From: Anaeroplasma bactoclasticum
GTDB lineage: Bacteria > Bacillota_I > Bacilli_A > ML615J-28 > CAG-313
DNA: 32,835 bases
Assembly (NCBI GenBank): GCA_023667245.1
Contig: JAMPAL010000013.1
Location: 1 to 32,835 of the forward strand
Reading direction: 5' to 3'
Of this stretch, positions 2,615 to 30,773 are shown piece after piece. Within the stretch, counting starts at the first letter, position 1. Each line of letters opens with the position of its first letter. The position numbers and the translations under genes are program-made. The notes below the pieces were generated by a model. It was not told the DNA's origin, did not search any database, and worked only from the letters and a program-made list of their open reading frames with translations.

Positions 2615-2650
2615 CAAAAAAGCCCCTTTTTCTACATTTTTAAAAGGAGC
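2615..2650 (-). terminator. Terminator of the dacB-spmA-spmB operon
   Basis: On the minus strand GCTCCTTTT (2642-2650) pairs with AAAAGGGGC (2622-2630), with one G-U pair, and is followed by six T. The spmB stop codon (2632-2634) falls in the loop. Confidence 0.8.
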
Positions 2651-3129
2651 ATGGCAAAAATTACAGTAAAGACAAATGTGGCAAAATCCGTCAATAATCC
2701 CGCTAATAGCGAGTGGCCATATTTGTTCATTTTTATGCTTGAAAAATACATCGCCACAATATAAATGGTCGTATCCGAACTACCTTGTAATAGACTAGAA
2801 AGCTGCCCTACAAATGAATCTACTCCATATTTTCCAAAAATATCTGTCATTACCAATAAGGAACTAGACCAAGAAATAGGCTTAAAAAAACATTGAATAA
2901 AGATTTCAGGTACAAGTATCTGCGTAGGTAACCATTTTTGCAACAATTCTAAGATACCCGAATTCGCAAATATTTGAATAGCTAAAATAATAGCTAGAAC
3001 ATTAGGAAAAACAGACTTTACTGTTTGAAAACTATTTTCGACACCATTCAAAAAAGATTGGTACGCATTAATTCGTTTAAAAAAAGCAAACCCCAATATA
3101 ACAAGCAAATATATGACAACTACTTGCAT
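2632..3129 (-). CDS. spmB: Spore maturation protein B
   Basis: This 165-residue integral membrane protein has the nucleoside-recognition/gate domain, with the conserved stretch QGSSDTTIYIVAMYFSSI. SpmB acts with SpmA in the dehydration of the spore core in Bacillus; the mechanism is not established. The ATG lies 10 bases inside the end of spmA, so translation is probably coupled. The order dacB-spmA-spmB is the same as in Bacillus subtilis. The gene ends in the terminator hairpin. Its presence implies sporulation ancestry, though SpmA/SpmB homologues also occur in non-sporulating lineages. Confidence 0.9.
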   Translation of the reverse strand: MQVVVIYLLVILGFAFFKRINAYQSFLNGVENSFQTVKSVFPNVLAIILAIQIFANSGILELLQKWLPTQILVPEIFIQCFFKPISWSSSLLVMTDIFGKYGVDSFVGQLSSLLQGSSDTTIYIVAMYFSSIKMNKYGHSLLAGLLTDFATFVFTVIFAMLLLKM

Positions 3130-3707
3130 TTTCTTTTTCCTATTCTATAAAAAATGCGATCCAATACAATAGCAACAAATGTTGAGAACGTGCTCACTAA
3201 AATCATCATCGCTATGAGCGACAAATCGCTTTTACCACCATACAAAGTCCTAAGTCCAATAATGGTTGTCGGAAATAATGTAATTGTACTGACATTGACT
3301 AAAATCAATGTCACCATTGAACGGCTAGGTCTGTCAGGATGAGGATTTTGACGTTGCAATTCTTCAAACGCTTTTAATCCTAGTGGTGTTGCAGCAGATC
3401 CTAAACCAAGCATATTGGCTACTATGTTGCTGCAAATATATTCCATAACAAGAGAGTCTGGTTCTACTTCAGGGAAAATTTTCGAAAGGGGCTTTTTTAA
3501 AAATCGTGTGATGTGTTTGATTAAACCCGAATCAATTGCGATTTGAAAAACACCATTCCAAAATAATATGAGTAAAGCAAGTTTTAAAAAAATATCAAAA
3601 GCAACACTACACGACCCCAAAATAATTTCGCCCATTTGGTCAAAATGTCCCGTAAAAACACTTACAATTATACCTAACACTATTAAAACATACCAAATTT
3701 TACTCAT
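3120..3707 (-). CDS. spmA: Spore maturation protein A
   Basis: This 195-residue membrane protein is the partner of SpmB and also has the gate/nucleoside-recognition domain (NIVANMLGLGSAATPLGLKA, then ILVNVSTITLFPTT). It overlaps dacB by four bases (ATGA) and spmB by ten, so the three genes form a tightly coupled operon. The length agrees with the family. The role in spore core dehydration is taken from Bacillus genetics; nothing here shows the substrate. Confidence 0.9.
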   Translation of the reverse strand: MSKIWYVLIVLGIIVSVFTGHFDQMGEIILGSCSVAFDIFLKLALLILFWNGVFQIAIDSGLIKHITRFLKKPLSKIFPEVEPDSLVMEYICSNIVANMLGLGSAATPLGLKAFEELQRQNPHPDRPSRSMVTLILVNVSTITLFPTTIIGLRTLYGGKSDLSLIAMMILVSTFSTFVAIVLDRIFYRIGKRKCK

Positions 3708-4759
3708 GTTTTTACCTTCTTTAAAAAAGTATGACCAATAACTTGGTCTTCAACCAAATAAACGATATCTAATCCATCCTGTAATAATATCAACTGATAA
3801 AATACATTTTCATTGACTTGAACCGGAACTATTAGATGCGAATTCGTAACATCATATTTACCATAATTGATTGTCGCTTTGTAAAATTCAAATAGCGAAA
3901 GTGCCTGGTAGGATTGATATTTGGAAAAAGCATAGGCGGCAAGTTGTTCATGAAAATACCAGTCATTTGAACAATTAAGAGTAACCACCACGATTTCAAA
4001 CTCTGATTGGGCAAAAGTAGAAACAAGCGTTCTTCTTGCCTGTTTTGTATAACCAGTTTTTCCACCAGTAGCAAGTCCCGATTGAATTAAACGATGTTTG
4101 TTGCGAAAGTACATTTTTGTACCTGTCGCAATATTACATTGATAATTTTTAGTACTGACAATGGTTCTAAACATTTCATTCTTCATGGCATAACTCATCA
4201 ATAAAGCCATATCATAAGCAGTTGTGTAATTTTGCGTTTTTGAATCTAGCCCACTCGGATTCGAAAATGTAGAATCTTTCATCCCAATTTTTCGAGCCAA
4301 CTTATTCATCAAATACACAAAGTCAGATTCATTTTGATTCAAGTGATGAGCAAGGACAATTGCTGCATCATTTCCACTACATAACATCAATCCATAAAGT
4401 AGATCTCTAATCGATATCACATCACCTATTTTGAGGTAGATTGCAGATCCTTCTGATTGTAGTACTTCATTTCCTACTACAACCAAATCATCTAATTGGT
4501 AATATTCCAAACATGTAATACAAGTGAGTATTTTTGTAATAGATGCTGGAAGCATTTTCTTTTTTTCCTGATGTGCATACAATACCCGCGTTGTTCTCAT
4601 ATCCATTACAATAGCGCTTTCTGCAAGCGGTGTAATTTGTGTAACAACTTCTTCTTGTGAATGGTCTTTTTTTTCAATAGATATACAAGAAAAAGTGCCC
4701 CATATCAACGCACTACTTATACATATAATAGCAAATAATAACGGCAGTCTTTGTTTCAT
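3704..4759 (-). CDS. dacB: D-alanyl-D-alanine carboxypeptidase, sporulation type
   Basis: This 351-residue penicillin-binding protein begins with an N-terminal signal or anchor segment (residues 1-27). The three S11-peptidase motifs are present: SITK (catalytic Ser and Lys), SGN and KTG. The enzyme trims the terminal D-Ala from peptidoglycan stem peptides. Its place directly ahead of spmA and spmB matches B. subtilis dacB (PBP5*), which lowers spore cortex cross-linking, so that name is preferred over dacA or dacF. It starts at an ATG with an AAGGGGTG site upstream. A TATAAT on the minus strand at 4775-4780 could be its -10 box, but the -35 is poor, which leaves room for a sporulation sigma factor. 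The C-terminal PBP5-like domain is short. Confidence 0.85.
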   Translation of the reverse strand: MKQRLPLLFAIICISSALIWGTFSCISIEKKDHSQEEVVTQITPLAESAIVMDMRTTRVLYAHQEKKKMLPASITKILTCITCLEYYQLDDLVVVGNEVLQSEGSAIYLKIGDVISIRDLLYGLMLCSGNDAAIVLAHHLNQNESDFVYLMNKLARKIGMKDSTFSNPSGLDSKTQNYTTAYDMALLMSYAMKNEMFRTIVSTKNYQCNIATGTKMYFRNKHRLIQSGLATGGKTGYTKQARRTLVSTFAQSEFEIVVVTLNCSNDWYFHEQLAAYAFSKYQSYQALSLFEFYKATINYGKYDVTNSHLIVPVQVNENVFYQLILLQDGLDIVYLVEDQVIGHTFLKKVKT

Positions 4760-20837: not shown

Positions 20838-21489
20838 CTATGGCTCTTTTTTTATATGATGCCCAAAAGATGAAAGTTCATACATCATCACATATTGTTC
20901 AATCATTTGCTGTTTTTGAAGCGACTTAATTTTTCGATAATTCATCATCCCGAGTGTGGCAGCAATTACACACCAACCATAATATCGAAAAAAGAAACCC
21001 ATTAGAAAGAATGGAATCAATAATAAAATGCCTATATAAATACATACCAATTGAATATGCGTATTTTTCCCCACTAAGTCAAATACGATACGATATCCAT
21101 CTAATGGAAATATCGGCAAAATATTAAAGCAAATCATAAGTTGATTATATTGAATGATACGTGCAATCGTTTCATAACTTTGAAATGGCAAAAAGAGTAT
21201 GAGCAGTAACATATTGATAGTCAGGCCTACCCATATTGATTAGTGCCTTCTTCCATTTTTCATTGATGGTATTTGTAGTTGCCTTTACTACTCCACCGAT
21301 TAGAGATAATGAAATACTTTCTACATGCCCTCCAAATATGAGGATCCAAAAAATATGGCCCAATTCATGGAGGATAATGATAATTCCTATGCCTAATGCC
21401 TCAAAGAAAAAACCACAGCATCCAGCAAGCACACAAAATAAAATAAATCCTATATGTATTTTAATTTTCTGACATATCGTAAAAGTCAT
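20838..21489 (-). pseudogene. spoIVFB: SpoIVFB-like M50 intramembrane metalloprotease, interrupted by a +1 frameshift
   Basis: Two overlapping frames together make one site-2 protease of about 216 residues. The first frame holds the zinc motif HELGH inside a hydrophobic helix and reads through ...KKALINMG. The second resumes with GLTINMLLLILF and holds the second zinc motif NILPIFPLDGYR. The change of frame falls at GGT-AGG-C (minus strand, 21225-21231); dropping the single A at 21228 restores a continuous M50 sequence. Without it the first frame stops at 21172. In Bacillus SpoIVFB cleaves pro-sigma K. The usual C-terminal CBS domain is absent. The start at 21489 is preferred over 21501 because of ribosome binding site spacing. 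Whether this is a true mutation, a sequence error or recoding cannot be decided here. Confidence 0.75.
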
Positions 21490-22090
21490 ATGCTTTTCCA
21501 TCCTTTTGAATTTTTACCACAAAGGTATATTTCCCATTTTCTTCTTCCGCTAATCCTAAAATACTTTCGCCCGAAACATAACTGTAGATAGAAACATCTG
21601 ATGTCTTTAATCCTATATATGTATATTCAAAGTCATCTATCGACTGAATGGTAATCGAAAAAGTACCATCTTTCCCTTTTTTAATACAAGATACTACACC
21701 GCTTGTTAAATTTTTCACACCATTAAAAGTAGTATTTTCAACATAATTTAGGCCTTGATGAAATACAACCTGTTCATATATATCGGTTTGATAAACGACT
21801 TGATCTATATCTTTAGGCAAAAAATTACCAAATAGTGCATTAAATGTTCCCGCTAGTTTCATAAAATTCCAATTTCGCTCTACAGTTTTTTCTTTCAGTG
21901 TGGCACCATCTTTAAAGGTAAATACACGATTGCTAACAACTAATCCTAGTAAAATAACTGAACTCAAAAAAATACGAAAAAATAGTTTTGTTACATAATT
22001 ATAGTGTATCTTTCGCTTAGTTTCATTAGATGTATGTGCTTTTTCTTTCATCGCTTTTTGGTATCGATATACCAAACTGTCTTTTTTCAT
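21461..22090 (-). CDS. spoIVFA: SpoIVFA-like protein (degenerate M23 domain)
   Basis: This 209-residue protein has a basic N-terminus, one transmembrane segment (about residues 32-50), and an outer C-terminal domain. The strand pattern of that domain (SGVVSCIKKGKDGTFSITIQS, FEYTYIGLKTSDVSIYSYV, ESILGLAEEENGKYTFVVKI) is that of an inactive LytM/M23 fold. The M23 zinc ligands are missing, as in SpoIVFA. In Bacillus SpoIVFA holds SpoIVFB inactive until a forespore signal arrives. Its place directly upstream of, and overlapping, the M50 gene supports the name. It has a good GGGGTGA site. No clear promoter lies in the 38 bases after radC. Confidence 0.7.
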   Translation of the reverse strand: MKKDSLVYRYQKAMKEKAHTSNETKRKIHYNYVTKLFFRIFLSSVILLGLVVSNRVFTFKDGATLKEKTVERNWNFMKLAGTFNALFGNFLPKDIDQVVYQTDIYEQVVFHQGLNYVENTTFNGVKNLTSGVVSCIKKGKDGTFSITIQSIDDFEYTYIGLKTSDVSIYSYVSGESILGLAEEENGKYTFVVKIQKDGKAYDFYDMSEN

Positions 22091-27132: not shown

Positions 27133-29541
27133 TTATTTCATATCACCAGGAAAGCGACATTCTCCCCTAGGATTAAATGTGAAACTAAACACTTTTATGC
27201 CTTCAGCCATTGTCAAACGCTTAAATTGATTGTGTTTGAAGCGATCCATCAATCGTTTATAATACACCAAAGCTTCTTCTTGGTTTAAACCAAAAGTCTG
27301 ATACAATAAATATAAAATCCTTGATTGTGAGGCACCACGCGTAAAAATGTGATACATCATAAAATCATTTATTTCATATTTTCCTATTCGTTCTTCAGTA
27401 GCCTGATCCGCTCCTGTCAATTCAGGTGAAATCACTGCTTGACATACTTTTCGTAATTCTAATTTTAACTGAGGATAAACACTACTAAAATAGCGGACCA
27501 ACGCCCTGACAGTAGTTTTCGGCAAATTGCTATTTAAACCATACATCGACATTTGATCGCCATTGAAGGTTGACCACCCCAAGGCGATTTCACTCATATC
27601 ACCTGTGCCTAAAACAATTCCTTTTTCTTGATTAGCCAAATTCATCAAATACATCGTTCTAAGTCTAGCTTGCACATTTTCATATGTAATATCCTTTTCG
27701 ATTTCACTATGTTGTAATAGTTTCAAATGGGCAAGGGCTTCTTTTTTGATAGACACCTCTCTAGCATCTACACCTAGCTTGTCCATCAAATGATTGGCAA
27801 TATTCTTTGATTTGCTCCCCGTGCCTAGTCCTGGCATTGTAACTGCGATAATATCTTTGGGATTCAAATGATATTTTTGGTAACATGTATAAGCAAATAG
27901 CAATGCCAGCGTCGAATCTAATCCCCCACTCACACCAATAATGACTTTGTAAGAACCAATATAGTCTAATCGATGTTTCAACGATACACAAACAATATCA
28001 ATGATTTCTGCTAATTCTCTTTCGGATTGTGGCACAAAGGGTAAGGAATCTGGCTTTTGTTCTAATACATAAGATGCTGATGGCAACAATTCAAATGAAA
28101 CTAAACTTGCTGTCTTATCCATTGCTGTACGGGCATAATTATCACTAGAACGAGCATATCGTATATATTCAAGGTCAATATCTACCATATGATACACACT
28201 TTCTAGTGATAATGTCTCTTGATTCAATAAAGTTTCTCCGCATACACAAGCGATTTGGTGACCTGAATAAGTTATGTCACTTGTCGAATCACTTGGACCA
28301 TTTGATACATAAATATATGCACCTTTATACTGATGACTAGCATGTGAAACAAGTTCATGTCGAACCGCTTTTTTTCCCAAATAGTAAGTTGATGCACTTA
28401 AATTGAACACAATGTCAGCACCTTTTTGATATAGCAAATGATGTGGCTTATCAATTCCCCATAAATCACCACAAATTTCAACACCAAAACAAAGGGAATC
28501 TGCTTGGTTTTGAAATAATACATTGCCAAATGCAACTGGATTATCGGGTTCTAAATGATGGAGCCAAACTGGATGCATCAAAAAAGATGAACCACTTGCA
28601 AAATAACGGCTTTCATAAAATTCACCACTTGTTGGTAAATTGGATTTCGGAATAATCCCTAAAATATGCTGATTTTGAATCACTGCAGCACAATTATAAA
28701 TGGCACCTGCATATTCAAAAGGCAATCCAACCAACCAAATTTGTTTGCCGCTCGCTTTTCGAACCATATGCAACGCCTCTATAGTTTGGCACAACAACTC
28801 CCGGTTCATTATCCAATCCCCCAAAGTGTATCCTGTTAATGACAGTTCAGGAAAAACAACAAAACTAGCCTGCTTAACTTGCGAAGCTAACGTGATAATT
28901 TCTTTTGCATTTTCAATGGGATGACCCAAAAATACTTTAGGTGTAACTAGTGCTATTTTTACGTAATTTTCTTTATACATGCTTTCCTCTACTTTCTGAT
29001 ACAATGCGTGTGTTTCAATATAATGATATAATTTAGAATTTACCCATTCTTTTTGATGGGTACGTCGAAAAGTCGATGAAGAAACATCAGGAAAATCAAT
29101 TTTGATTACCTCAAAATGACTTGCATAGGGCTTTAGCCAACTACTATTTATCCACTGATAGACCTGTTCTACACTAAGATGCCGTGTAAAAATCAAAAAT
29201 TCATTTTCTGAAACCAAAACTTGTGGTTTAATCCATTGATCGAGTTGCATCAAGCAATCATCTCCACAAACAAATAAAGGATGATCTAAATCACGGAGAC
29301 TTTGATAAGTCCCCTTAAATGATCTTTTCAATTCAATAGGCGAAATGACTACATTATCATATGATTCCGCAATGATATTTAGCATGTCTAGACGCATCTT
29401 TTGATCAATTAAACCCTGCTTGTGATATTTGTTCCCATTGGGTAGCAAAATAACTTCATCATAATGATGCGATAAATAATCTATCACTGCCTCATGGGCA
29501 ATCGTTGGCGGATTAAAACTACCACCAAAAACTACTTTCAT
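27133..29541 (-). CDS. nadE: NadD-NadE fusion: NaMN adenylyltransferase joined to glutamine-dependent NAD synthetase
   Basis: This 802-residue protein joins the last two steps of NAD synthesis. Residues 1-180 are a NadD domain: GGSFNPPTIAHE nucleotide-binding motif and SSSTFRR (155-160). Residues 192-480 are a nitrilase-type glutaminase with the triad Glu (FPELS, ~232), Lys (IPKSN, ~299) and Cys (GVEICGDLWG, ~357). Residues 505-802 are the synthetase with the PP-loop GVSGGLDSTLAL (~536-547). NadD makes deamido-NAD from NaMN and ATP; NadE amidates it with ammonia channelled from glutamine. No stop interrupts the junction. An ATG at residue 188 has AGAGGAAAGC just before it, so a separate NadE could also be made. 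It overlaps the GltD-like gene by four bases (ATGA). No terminator is visible after it. Confidence 0.93.
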   Translation of the reverse strand: MKVVFGGSFNPPTIAHEAVIDYLSHHYDEVILLPNGNKYHKQGLIDQKMRLDMLNIIAESYDNVVISPIELKRSFKGTYQSLRDLDHPLFVCGDDCLMQLDQWIKPQVLVSENEFLIFTRHLSVEQVYQWINSSWLKPYASHFEVIKIDFPDVSSSTFRRTHQKEWVNSKLYHYIETHALYQKVEESMYKENYVKIALVTPKVFLGHPIENAKEIITLASQVKQASFVVFPELSLTGYTLGDWIMNRELLCQTIEALHMVRKASGKQIWLVGLPFEYAGAIYNCAAVIQNQHILGIIPKSNLPTSGEFYESRYFASGSSFLMHPVWLHHLEPDNPVAFGNVLFQNQADSLCFGVEICGDLWGIDKPHHLLYQKGADIVFNLSASTYYLGKKAVRHELVSHASHQYKGAYIYVSNGPSDSTSDITYSGHQIACVCGETLLNQETLSLESVYHMVDIDLEYIRYARSSDNYARTAMDKTASLVSFELLPSASYVLEQKPDSLPFVPQSERELAEIIDIVCVSLKHRLDYIGSYKVIIGVSGGLDSTLALLFAYTCYQKYHLNPKDIIAVTMPGLGTGSKSKNIANHLMDKLGVDAREVSIKKEALAHLKLLQHSEIEKDITYENVQARLRTMYLMNLANQEKGIVLGTGDMSEIALGWSTFNGDQMSMYGLNSNLPKTTVRALVRYFSSVYPQLKLELRKVCQAVISPELTGADQATEERIGKYEINDFMMYHIFTRGASQSRILYLLYQTFGLNQEEALVYYKRLMDRFKHNQFKRLTMAEGIKVFSFTFNPRGECRFPGDMK
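28978..28990 (-). promoter_or_regulatory. Internal ribosome binding site and ATG at the NadD/NadE junction
   Basis: On the minus strand AGAGGAAAGC (28981-28990) immediately precedes an in-frame ATG (28978-28980, codon 188), just ahead of the glutaminase domain. It is either a relic of two former genes or an active internal start. Confidence 0.5.
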
Positions 29542-30773
29542 CCCTCCACCACCTTTTTCACTGCTTGCTTTGCTGAGGCAACTGCTCTCGCAAAACTAGA
29601 TGCCCCAAGCAAATAATCTCCTATAACCAAAATGGTTTGGCCTTGATAAGTTGCCATGGCTTCTGTTTTGATCCACCCGTGCTCATCGAACAATTCTGGG
29701 ACAAGTTGTTTTAACGCTGTATATTCAGGTTCTAGTCCAATGGCCTCTACGATAGCATCGGCAGGAATAATCGAAATTAAACCTGTTTTTTGAAAATTTT
29801 TTCGTCCCATTGTCTTTTCTTCTACCAGTCTAGTTCGTTCTACGAGAAGTCCAGTAAGCAACTGATTTTGATAAATGGGTTCTACTGGAGAAGCACATTC
29901 TTCTATTGAGATTCCCTCATTTTGCACATGAGCTATCTCCATTTGGCTTGCAGGCGCCTGATCTATTGTACGACGATAAACAATCTTTACTTCATTGTTC
30001 ATGCGTTTTAAGGCCCTTGCCACATCCATAGCTACATTCCCTCCACCAATTACAAGTACTTGTTTATGTTCTAACAAAGCATGGTTTCGTTTAAAAGCAC
30101 GTAAAACTTCCATTCCATCATAAACATAGGGTGAAGTAGGAAAACTGCGTTTAGATACACCTGCACCAAGTGCAAACAAAATATACTCAAAAGAATCCAA
30201 TTCCGCCATAATAAGATTTTTGCCCCACTCTTTTCGGTAATGTATTAGAACACCCAAAGAATCTAATACTGCTCTATATTTTTCTACTACTGATTCTGTA
30301 AAACGAAAATCAGGGAGGGTATCCGTAATGACTCCACCTATTTTTTCTCTTTTTTCAAATACTTCAACATGATATCCTTTTTGAGCCAAATCAATTGCTG
30401 CACTTATCCCCGCAAGACCAGCACCAATAATCGCTACTCGTTTACCATGATAATCCGTGCAAACATAATCATTTGCTTGAATCAACTCTGCTAAATAAGC
30501 TTCTACTTTATAAAAGGCGACACTACCTTTATCAGTATTGCCCAATACGCAATGGCCATAGCACTGGTGTTTGACATCACATAGTGTTGCGCAAATAGAA
30601 CTGGCATTTGTTGTTTCTAATAACATTTTTTTAGCACATTCAATGTTATCTTGTTCAATAGCAGACAAAATTTGGGGAATTGAATTACCTAAGGGACAGT
30701 GTTTTACACAAGCAGGATGTTTACATTTTAAGCATTTTTGAGCTATTTTTTTAATTTCTACAAAATCATCCAT
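29538..30773 (-). CDS. GltD-like NAD(P)H-dependent flavoprotein oxidoreductase
   Basis: This 411-residue protein is related to the glutamate synthase small subunit (GltD) and the N-terminal part of dihydropyrimidine dehydrogenase. Two four-Cys groups (C14, C17, C22, C26; C61, C65, C71, C75) should hold 4Fe-4S clusters. VAIIGAGLAGISAA starts the FAD domain, and VLVIGGGNVAMDVARAL marks the NAD(P)H site. No gltB lies nearby, and the protein is somewhat shorter than GltD, so a stand-alone or other-partner reductase is more likely than true glutamate synthase. Its stop overlaps the NadD-NadE start. It has its own promoter and an AAGGAAG site. The electron acceptor is unknown. Confidence 0.85.
   Translation of the reverse strand: MDDFVEIKKIAQKCLKCKHPACVKHCPLGNSIPQILSAIEQDNIECAKKMLLETTNASSICATLCDVKHQCYGHCVLGNTDKGSVAFYKVEAYLAELIQANDYVCTDYHGKRVAIIGAGLAGISAAIDLAQKGYHVEVFEKREKIGGVITDTLPDFRFTESVVEKYRAVLDSLGVLIHYRKEWGKNLIMAELDSFEYILFALGAGVSKRSFPTSPYVYDGMEVLRAFKRNHALLEHKQVLVIGGGNVAMDVARALKRMNNEVKIVYRRTIDQAPASQMEIAHVQNEGISIEECASPVEPIYQNQLLTGLLVERTRLVEEKTMGRKNFQKTGLISIIPADAIVEAIGLEPEYTALKQLVPELFDEHGWIKTEAMATYQGQTILVIGDYLLGASSFARAVASAKQAVKKVVEG

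Follow-up and report, generated by a model that had tools for sequence, protein, structure and literature searches.

Most bacterial NAD passes through NadD and NadE. In the window, by which we mean the whole 32,835 nt stretch of DNA that was analysed, a sequence-only reading had placed both enzymes in a single frame, with a ribosome binding site kept at their junction. The locus raises the question of whether the two genes are truly joined, how the joining came about, and what the joined gene would produce. The gene, its parts and its upstream neighbour are as follows.

27133..29541, minus strand: nadD-nadE fusion gene, 802 aa, open frame, with homologous fusions in genomes G001 and G004
28996..29541, minus strand: NadD domain (NaMN adenylyltransferase), aa 1-182, from CTP_transf_like, TIGR00482 and NadD relatives in the PDB
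27136..28980, minus strand: NadE domain, aa 188-802, glutamine-dependent NAD synthetase of the tuberculosis type, from PRK02628, 3dla and Foldseek
28315..28917, minus strand: glutaminase (CN_hydrolase) part of NadE, aa 209-409, from Pfam
27217..27996, minus strand: synthetase (NAD_synthase) part of NadE, aa 516-775, from Pfam
29538..30773, minus strand: GltD-like FeS/flavin NAD(P)-binding oxidoreductase, sharing 4 nt with the fusion gene

The 802-codon frame was open from its ATG to its stop codon, and the ATG overlapped the stop of the upstream gene (ATGA). Translation would begin at ATG 29541, which is preceded by a strong Shine-Dalgarno match (-12.1 kcal/mol). All three Pfam domains (CTP_transf_like at aa 4-142, CN_hydrolase and NAD_synthase) scored above their cut-offs, and the NCBIfam model PRK02628 (NAD synthase) matched aa 186-801 with 546 bits against a cut-off of 473. 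The NadD model TIGR00482 was covered over its full length (1-194 of 194) by aa 4-181, with a score of 88.5 bits that did not reach its cut-off of 112.45; a related GltD-NadD protein also fell under this cut-off (99.1 bits). The best PDB match of the first 187 residues was the NadD structure 8aih (6e-8). Frame, Pfam and NCBIfam therefore agree with the earlier reading of a complete NadD followed by NadE. The motifs on which that reading was based were likewise all present in the frame: GGSFNPPTIAH and SSSTFRR, which carry the (H/T)xxH and SSxxxR signatures of NadD and were kept in an alignment of relatives, the glutaminase residues E232/K299/C357, and the PP-loop SGGLDST. All but one or two of the motif positions were invariant across the three fused proteins.

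A nitrilase-like glutaminase domain followed by an NAD synthase domain is the architecture of type 1 NadE, and this order was found in the second part of the fusion. Against the PDB, the NadE part matched 3dla (tbNadE) at 1.6e-83, 5kha at 2.5e-35 and 4f4h at 9.7e-26, and Foldseek gave the predicted NadE part a TM-score of 0.81-0.83 to tbNadE versus about 0.41 to dimeric type 2 forms. By sequence and predicted fold, the NadE part thus resembles tbNadE more closely than it does the dimeric type 2 enzymes, consistent with the earlier claim of a long glutamine-dependent synthetase of the octameric kind. In the single-chain structure model, residues 152-185 (the NadD C-terminus and the junction) had a pLDDT below 50 and the two domains were not placed.

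The same open fusion was found in two further members of the genus from separate assemblies, G001 (90% identity) and G004 (59% identity), which rules out a sequencing error. That an assembly or sequencing error masks a stop or frameshift between two ordinary genes is a negligible prospect even for drafts that are split into many contigs and include at least one metagenome bin, since the junction is free of stops and frameshifts in three separate assemblies and that of G004 carries a two-codon indel that keeps the frame. A scan of genome contigs gave one record, CATLBQ010000001.1 (G001, an uncultured Bacilli MAG). For the two remaining congeners, the G002 contig that holds valS, the next gene downstream of the fusion, breaks off no more than a few bases from where valS starts, and no valS was found in G003, indicating that the nadD-nadE locus is unassembled in both; a loss of the genes was rejected, as the locus falls in assembly gaps. 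The fusion was thus present in all three congeners in which the locus is assembled.

The window genome contains a single nadD and a single nadE. Apart from the fusion, PF01467 matched one 164-aa frame of CoaD size, so that a second, stand-alone nadD was rejected, and the other PF02540 match was weak (24.5 bits, a 393-aa frame), as expected of another PP-loop enzyme rather than a second nadE. In the comparison of G000 with G001, purifying selection acts on both domains, with pS values of 0.46 and 0.56, pN of about 0.05, and pN/pS of about 0.1 in the NadD and in the NadE domain. The NadD-NadE fusion is real; it holds the sole copies of both genes in the genome and is common to its congeners.

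The view that NadD and NadE are normally separate understates how close the two genes lie in relatives. In members of the order in which both were found, nadD is immediately followed by nadE, the two being a few nt apart or overlapping, and in most of them the nadE Shine-Dalgarno sequence lies within the last nadD codons, for example TTA TAT AAG GAG (Leu-Tyr-Lys-Glu). Across a class-wide sample of 395 genomes the two genes usually touch or overlap, and among the matches listed about twenty NadD/NadE pairs share a frame that is interrupted by only one or two stops. No NadD-NadE fusion outside the three congeners was among the matches listed for the class sample, which reach about E=5e-109, so that a very diverged fusion could be missed, and none was among those listed for a phylum sample of 392 genomes that overlaps with the class sample. 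In a maximum-likelihood NadE tree the three fused proteins formed one clade (100/100) within their family.

Given that the two genes lie side by side in relatives, often with an overlap, fusion would be a small step. The usual contact between the genes and the lack of further fusions among the matches listed point to a single origin in the ancestor of the genus, probably by a tiny indel or by stop loss. In G009, a member of the same family, nadD and nadE overlap by about 22 nt in a different frame, with TTATACGAGGTGAA before the nadE ATG; the fused G004 has the same TTATACGAGGTGAA letters followed by a slightly different spacer. Since G009 overlaps in the other frame and shares this sequence with G004, the simplest route would be a net one-base indel within the overlap, the alternative being stop loss in an in-frame pair; we infer the exact mutation, indel or stop loss, from present-day relatives. 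The tandem nadD-nadE genes of other Bacilli share the gene order and the NadE subfamily and would represent the ancestral state, whereas a stop codon or a change of frame lies between them. Close unfused relatives thereby display the state before fusion.

On this basis, the locus very probably encodes a working bifunctional NadD-NadE enzyme that originated once, in the ancestor of the genus, when an overlapping or nearly touching nadD-nadE pair became one frame through an indel or stop loss. A stretch of about ten residues would connect NadD to NadE, a glutamine-dependent synthetase of the tuberculosis type, and the fusion would carry NaMN to deamido-NAD and on to NAD. The NaMN would most likely come from the de novo pathway, as NadC was found in the genus, NAPRTase was not found in the genus and was rejected as the source, and the gene beside nadC in L103 looks nadB-like when its sequence is read by eye. 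NadE types, including the octameric type of M. tuberculosis, have been described (PMC7196632, PMC6946656), and in the octamer a glutaminase core of two tetramer layers is surrounded by eight decorating domains (PMC6946656). Joining would set the ratio of NadD to NadE at 1:1, and would put NadD on the surface of what is probably a NadE octamer.

Why the genes were joined is a separate matter. The fusion may be a neutral by-product of a packed operon, in which overlapping genes fuse by a small indel and NadE tolerates N-terminal extensions, an explanation that we consider an even call. The near contact of the genes in most relatives and the in-frame pairs one or two stops short of fusion favour it, as do the joining of NadD to its upstream neighbour in three other genera (g2, g3 and g4) and the expression of human NadE with an N-terminal SUMO tag (PMC6946656). 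However, the single-stop state is common and yet no second fusion was among the matches listed from the 395 class genomes, which suggests that fusion is usually not favoured; in addition, the fusion has been kept over deep divergence within its genus.

A second explanation turns on the start codon that lies within the joined gene.

28978..28980, minus strand: internal ATG at codon 188, the homologue of the nadE start codon where this gene stands alone
28981..28990, minus strand: weak Shine-Dalgarno-like AGAGGAAAGC ahead of the internal ATG, -5.8 kcal/mol, not above chance
28933..29028, minus strand: codons 172-203, where synonymous divergence is lowest within the gene, 1 change among 30 eligible codons against 9.1 expected

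By homology with the nadE start of relatives, initiation at codon 188 would yield exactly the usual NadE. Were this start used, the gene would give both the fusion and free NadE, and mixed octamers would be less crowded by eight NadD domains; we regard this as possible but short of probable. The ribosome binding site reported earlier at the junction is present as described, AGAGGAAAGC-ATG at codon 188, but in the window its strength is no better than chance, because 16 of the 222 ATGs inside window genes, and 19% of synonymous recodings, have a match as strong or stronger. The value in G001 is equally ordinary (-5.8 kcal/mol), and codons 98 and 245 of the fusion gene have stronger matches than codon 188. 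In G004, the basal fused species, the site before the internal ATG instead reaches -11.8 kcal/mol, a strength attained by 0 of the 222 internal ATGs and by 0.17% of recodings; judged from this match, G004 keeps the strong ancestral nadE Shine-Dalgarno site. In the window lineage the ancestral site directly after Leu-Tyr has been lost (CAGAAAG) and the weak site lies further downstream.

Synonymous changes add to the case for the internal start. Between G000 and G001 they affected 35% of eligible codons gene-wide. Within codons 188-203, however, none of the 15 eligible codons had changed, against 5.3 expected (P about 0.0006), and within codons 172-203 one of 30 had (P about 0.0002); these P values come from permutation within amino acids for this one genome pair. 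The longest identical run in the gene (48 nt) starts at the first base of the internal ATG, and a gene-wide scan with no place named beforehand gave P 0.01-0.03 for the synonymous dip. MurD, GltD and ValS showed no signal in the same scan, although FolC reached P 0.04 at an arbitrary place, and the nadE starts of unfused pairs show a weak, non-significant dip. The ATG of codon 188 also had the lowest predicted RNA structure of 20 internal ATGs (-1.3 kcal/mol, the next being -4.8), which is partly due to A-rich codons. Internal initiation at codon 188 is plausible, because the most synonymously conserved stretch starts at the internal ATG and this ATG is the least structured, and some free NadE could plausibly come from the ancestral start. 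That a conserved internal start makes one gene produce both the fusion and free NadE, assembled into mixed octamers in which NadE subunits outnumber NadD domains, nevertheless seems to us unlikely. If true, a single gene would encode, through its two products, a set stoichiometry of the two final steps of NAD synthesis.

A third explanation holds that the fusion evolved since deamido-NAD passes straight from the NadD site to the NadE site. The enzymes joined are consecutive, the domain order is the reaction order, and the fusion has persisted in proteins as far apart as 59% identity. Deamido-NAD might be handed over directly, but neither structure nor kinetics supports this, the short junction being modelled without confidence. 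Furthermore, the sister genera g2 (G005, G012, G013), g3 (G006) and g4 (G007) fuse NadD to the GltD-like protein in frames of 586-614 aa, with NadE separate in G007 and, in G005, G006 and G012, encoded at another genomic place as a short form of about 250 aa, indicating that NadD does not depend on NadE as a partner. We consider channelling as the reason for the fusion quite improbable.

The GltD-like–NadD fusion (comparison loci of the oxidoreductase, L064-L068) resembles the NadD-NadE fusion in that the partner of NadD is again encoded next to it in the same cluster, but there NadD is C-terminal and its partner is the upstream oxidoreductase and not NadE. Judged from these frames, NadD acquired different partners in neighbouring genera. 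The GltD-like protein scored below the cut-off of every GltD-related NCBIfam model among those listed. Its fusion to NadD in three sister genera suggests that the oxidoreductase is linked to NAD synthesis, and offers a fresh lead on its role in NAD metabolism. The short NAD synthase, of the ammonia type by length, was found in G005, G006 and G012 (L041-L043), where it replaces the long glutamine-dependent NadE, and in G011 (L040).

Elsewhere in the window, two observations concern genes related to sporulation.

20838-21501, minus strand: SpoIVFB-like M50 protease gene with a +1 shift, site 21234-21225 (ATG GGT AGG C)

The +1 break has the same position in each of the four congeners with the gene (L105, L106, L107, L109), with N-terminal halves down to 36% identity and a conserved core, ATGG(G/C)TAGGC, at the shift site. 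Elsewhere in the family, several genera have the gene as a single open frame. Between G000 and G001, purifying selection acts on each half of the broken gene (pN/pS 0.14 and 0.19); the frame-0 tail shows no conservation. A reassigned AGG codon was rejected as the cause of the break, as window genes use AGG at 36 positions of the usual arginine-like kind. The gene is a candidate for programmed +1 frameshifting, and its site resembles the NNU-AGG-C pattern of yeast Ty1. At 2632-4759, two small membrane proteins that look SpmA/SpmB-like by eye are encoded beside a D-alanyl-D-alanine carboxypeptidase (Peptidase_S11); one of this pair was searched against Pfam, without a match. Together, the SpmA/SpmB-like and SpoIVFB-like genes hint that this uncultured lineage keeps sporulation genes.

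Compared with known systems, nearly the whole NadE part of the fusion aligns with M. tuberculosis NadE (type 1, octamer; 3dla, 6ofc), with the triad and the PP-loop kept; the tuberculosis enzyme has no NadD in front, and the fusion's NadE is known here from a single-chain prediction. With stand-alone NadD (8aih, 2qtr, 1kam) the fusion shares the nucleotidyltransferase motifs GGSFNPPTxAH and SSxxxR and the full-length TIGR00482 match, and it has TxAH and not HxGH, as do its relatives. Stand-alone NadD ends at LYKE or similar, whereas the C-terminus of the fusion's NadD continues into NadE. PRK07152-type NadD-HD proteins and NadR are, like the fusion, multi-domain proteins with a nucleotidyltransferase for NAD, but neither is known to couple the adenylyltransferase to an NAD synthetase. 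NadR has been described (PMC7221760). No report of a NadD-NadE fusion was found in the open-access full-text literature, and no NCBIfam model of the joined proteins was among the matches to the fusion protein, so that this is apparently the first described joining of NadD and NadE, as far as these searches reach. It makes the fusion of overlapping genes, the tolerance of the NadE octamer for attached domains, and the internal starts left by fusion directly testable. Within a single genus of uncultured Bacilli, two well-known enzymes are here newly arranged, in a form that departs only modestly from a gene organisation that is common.
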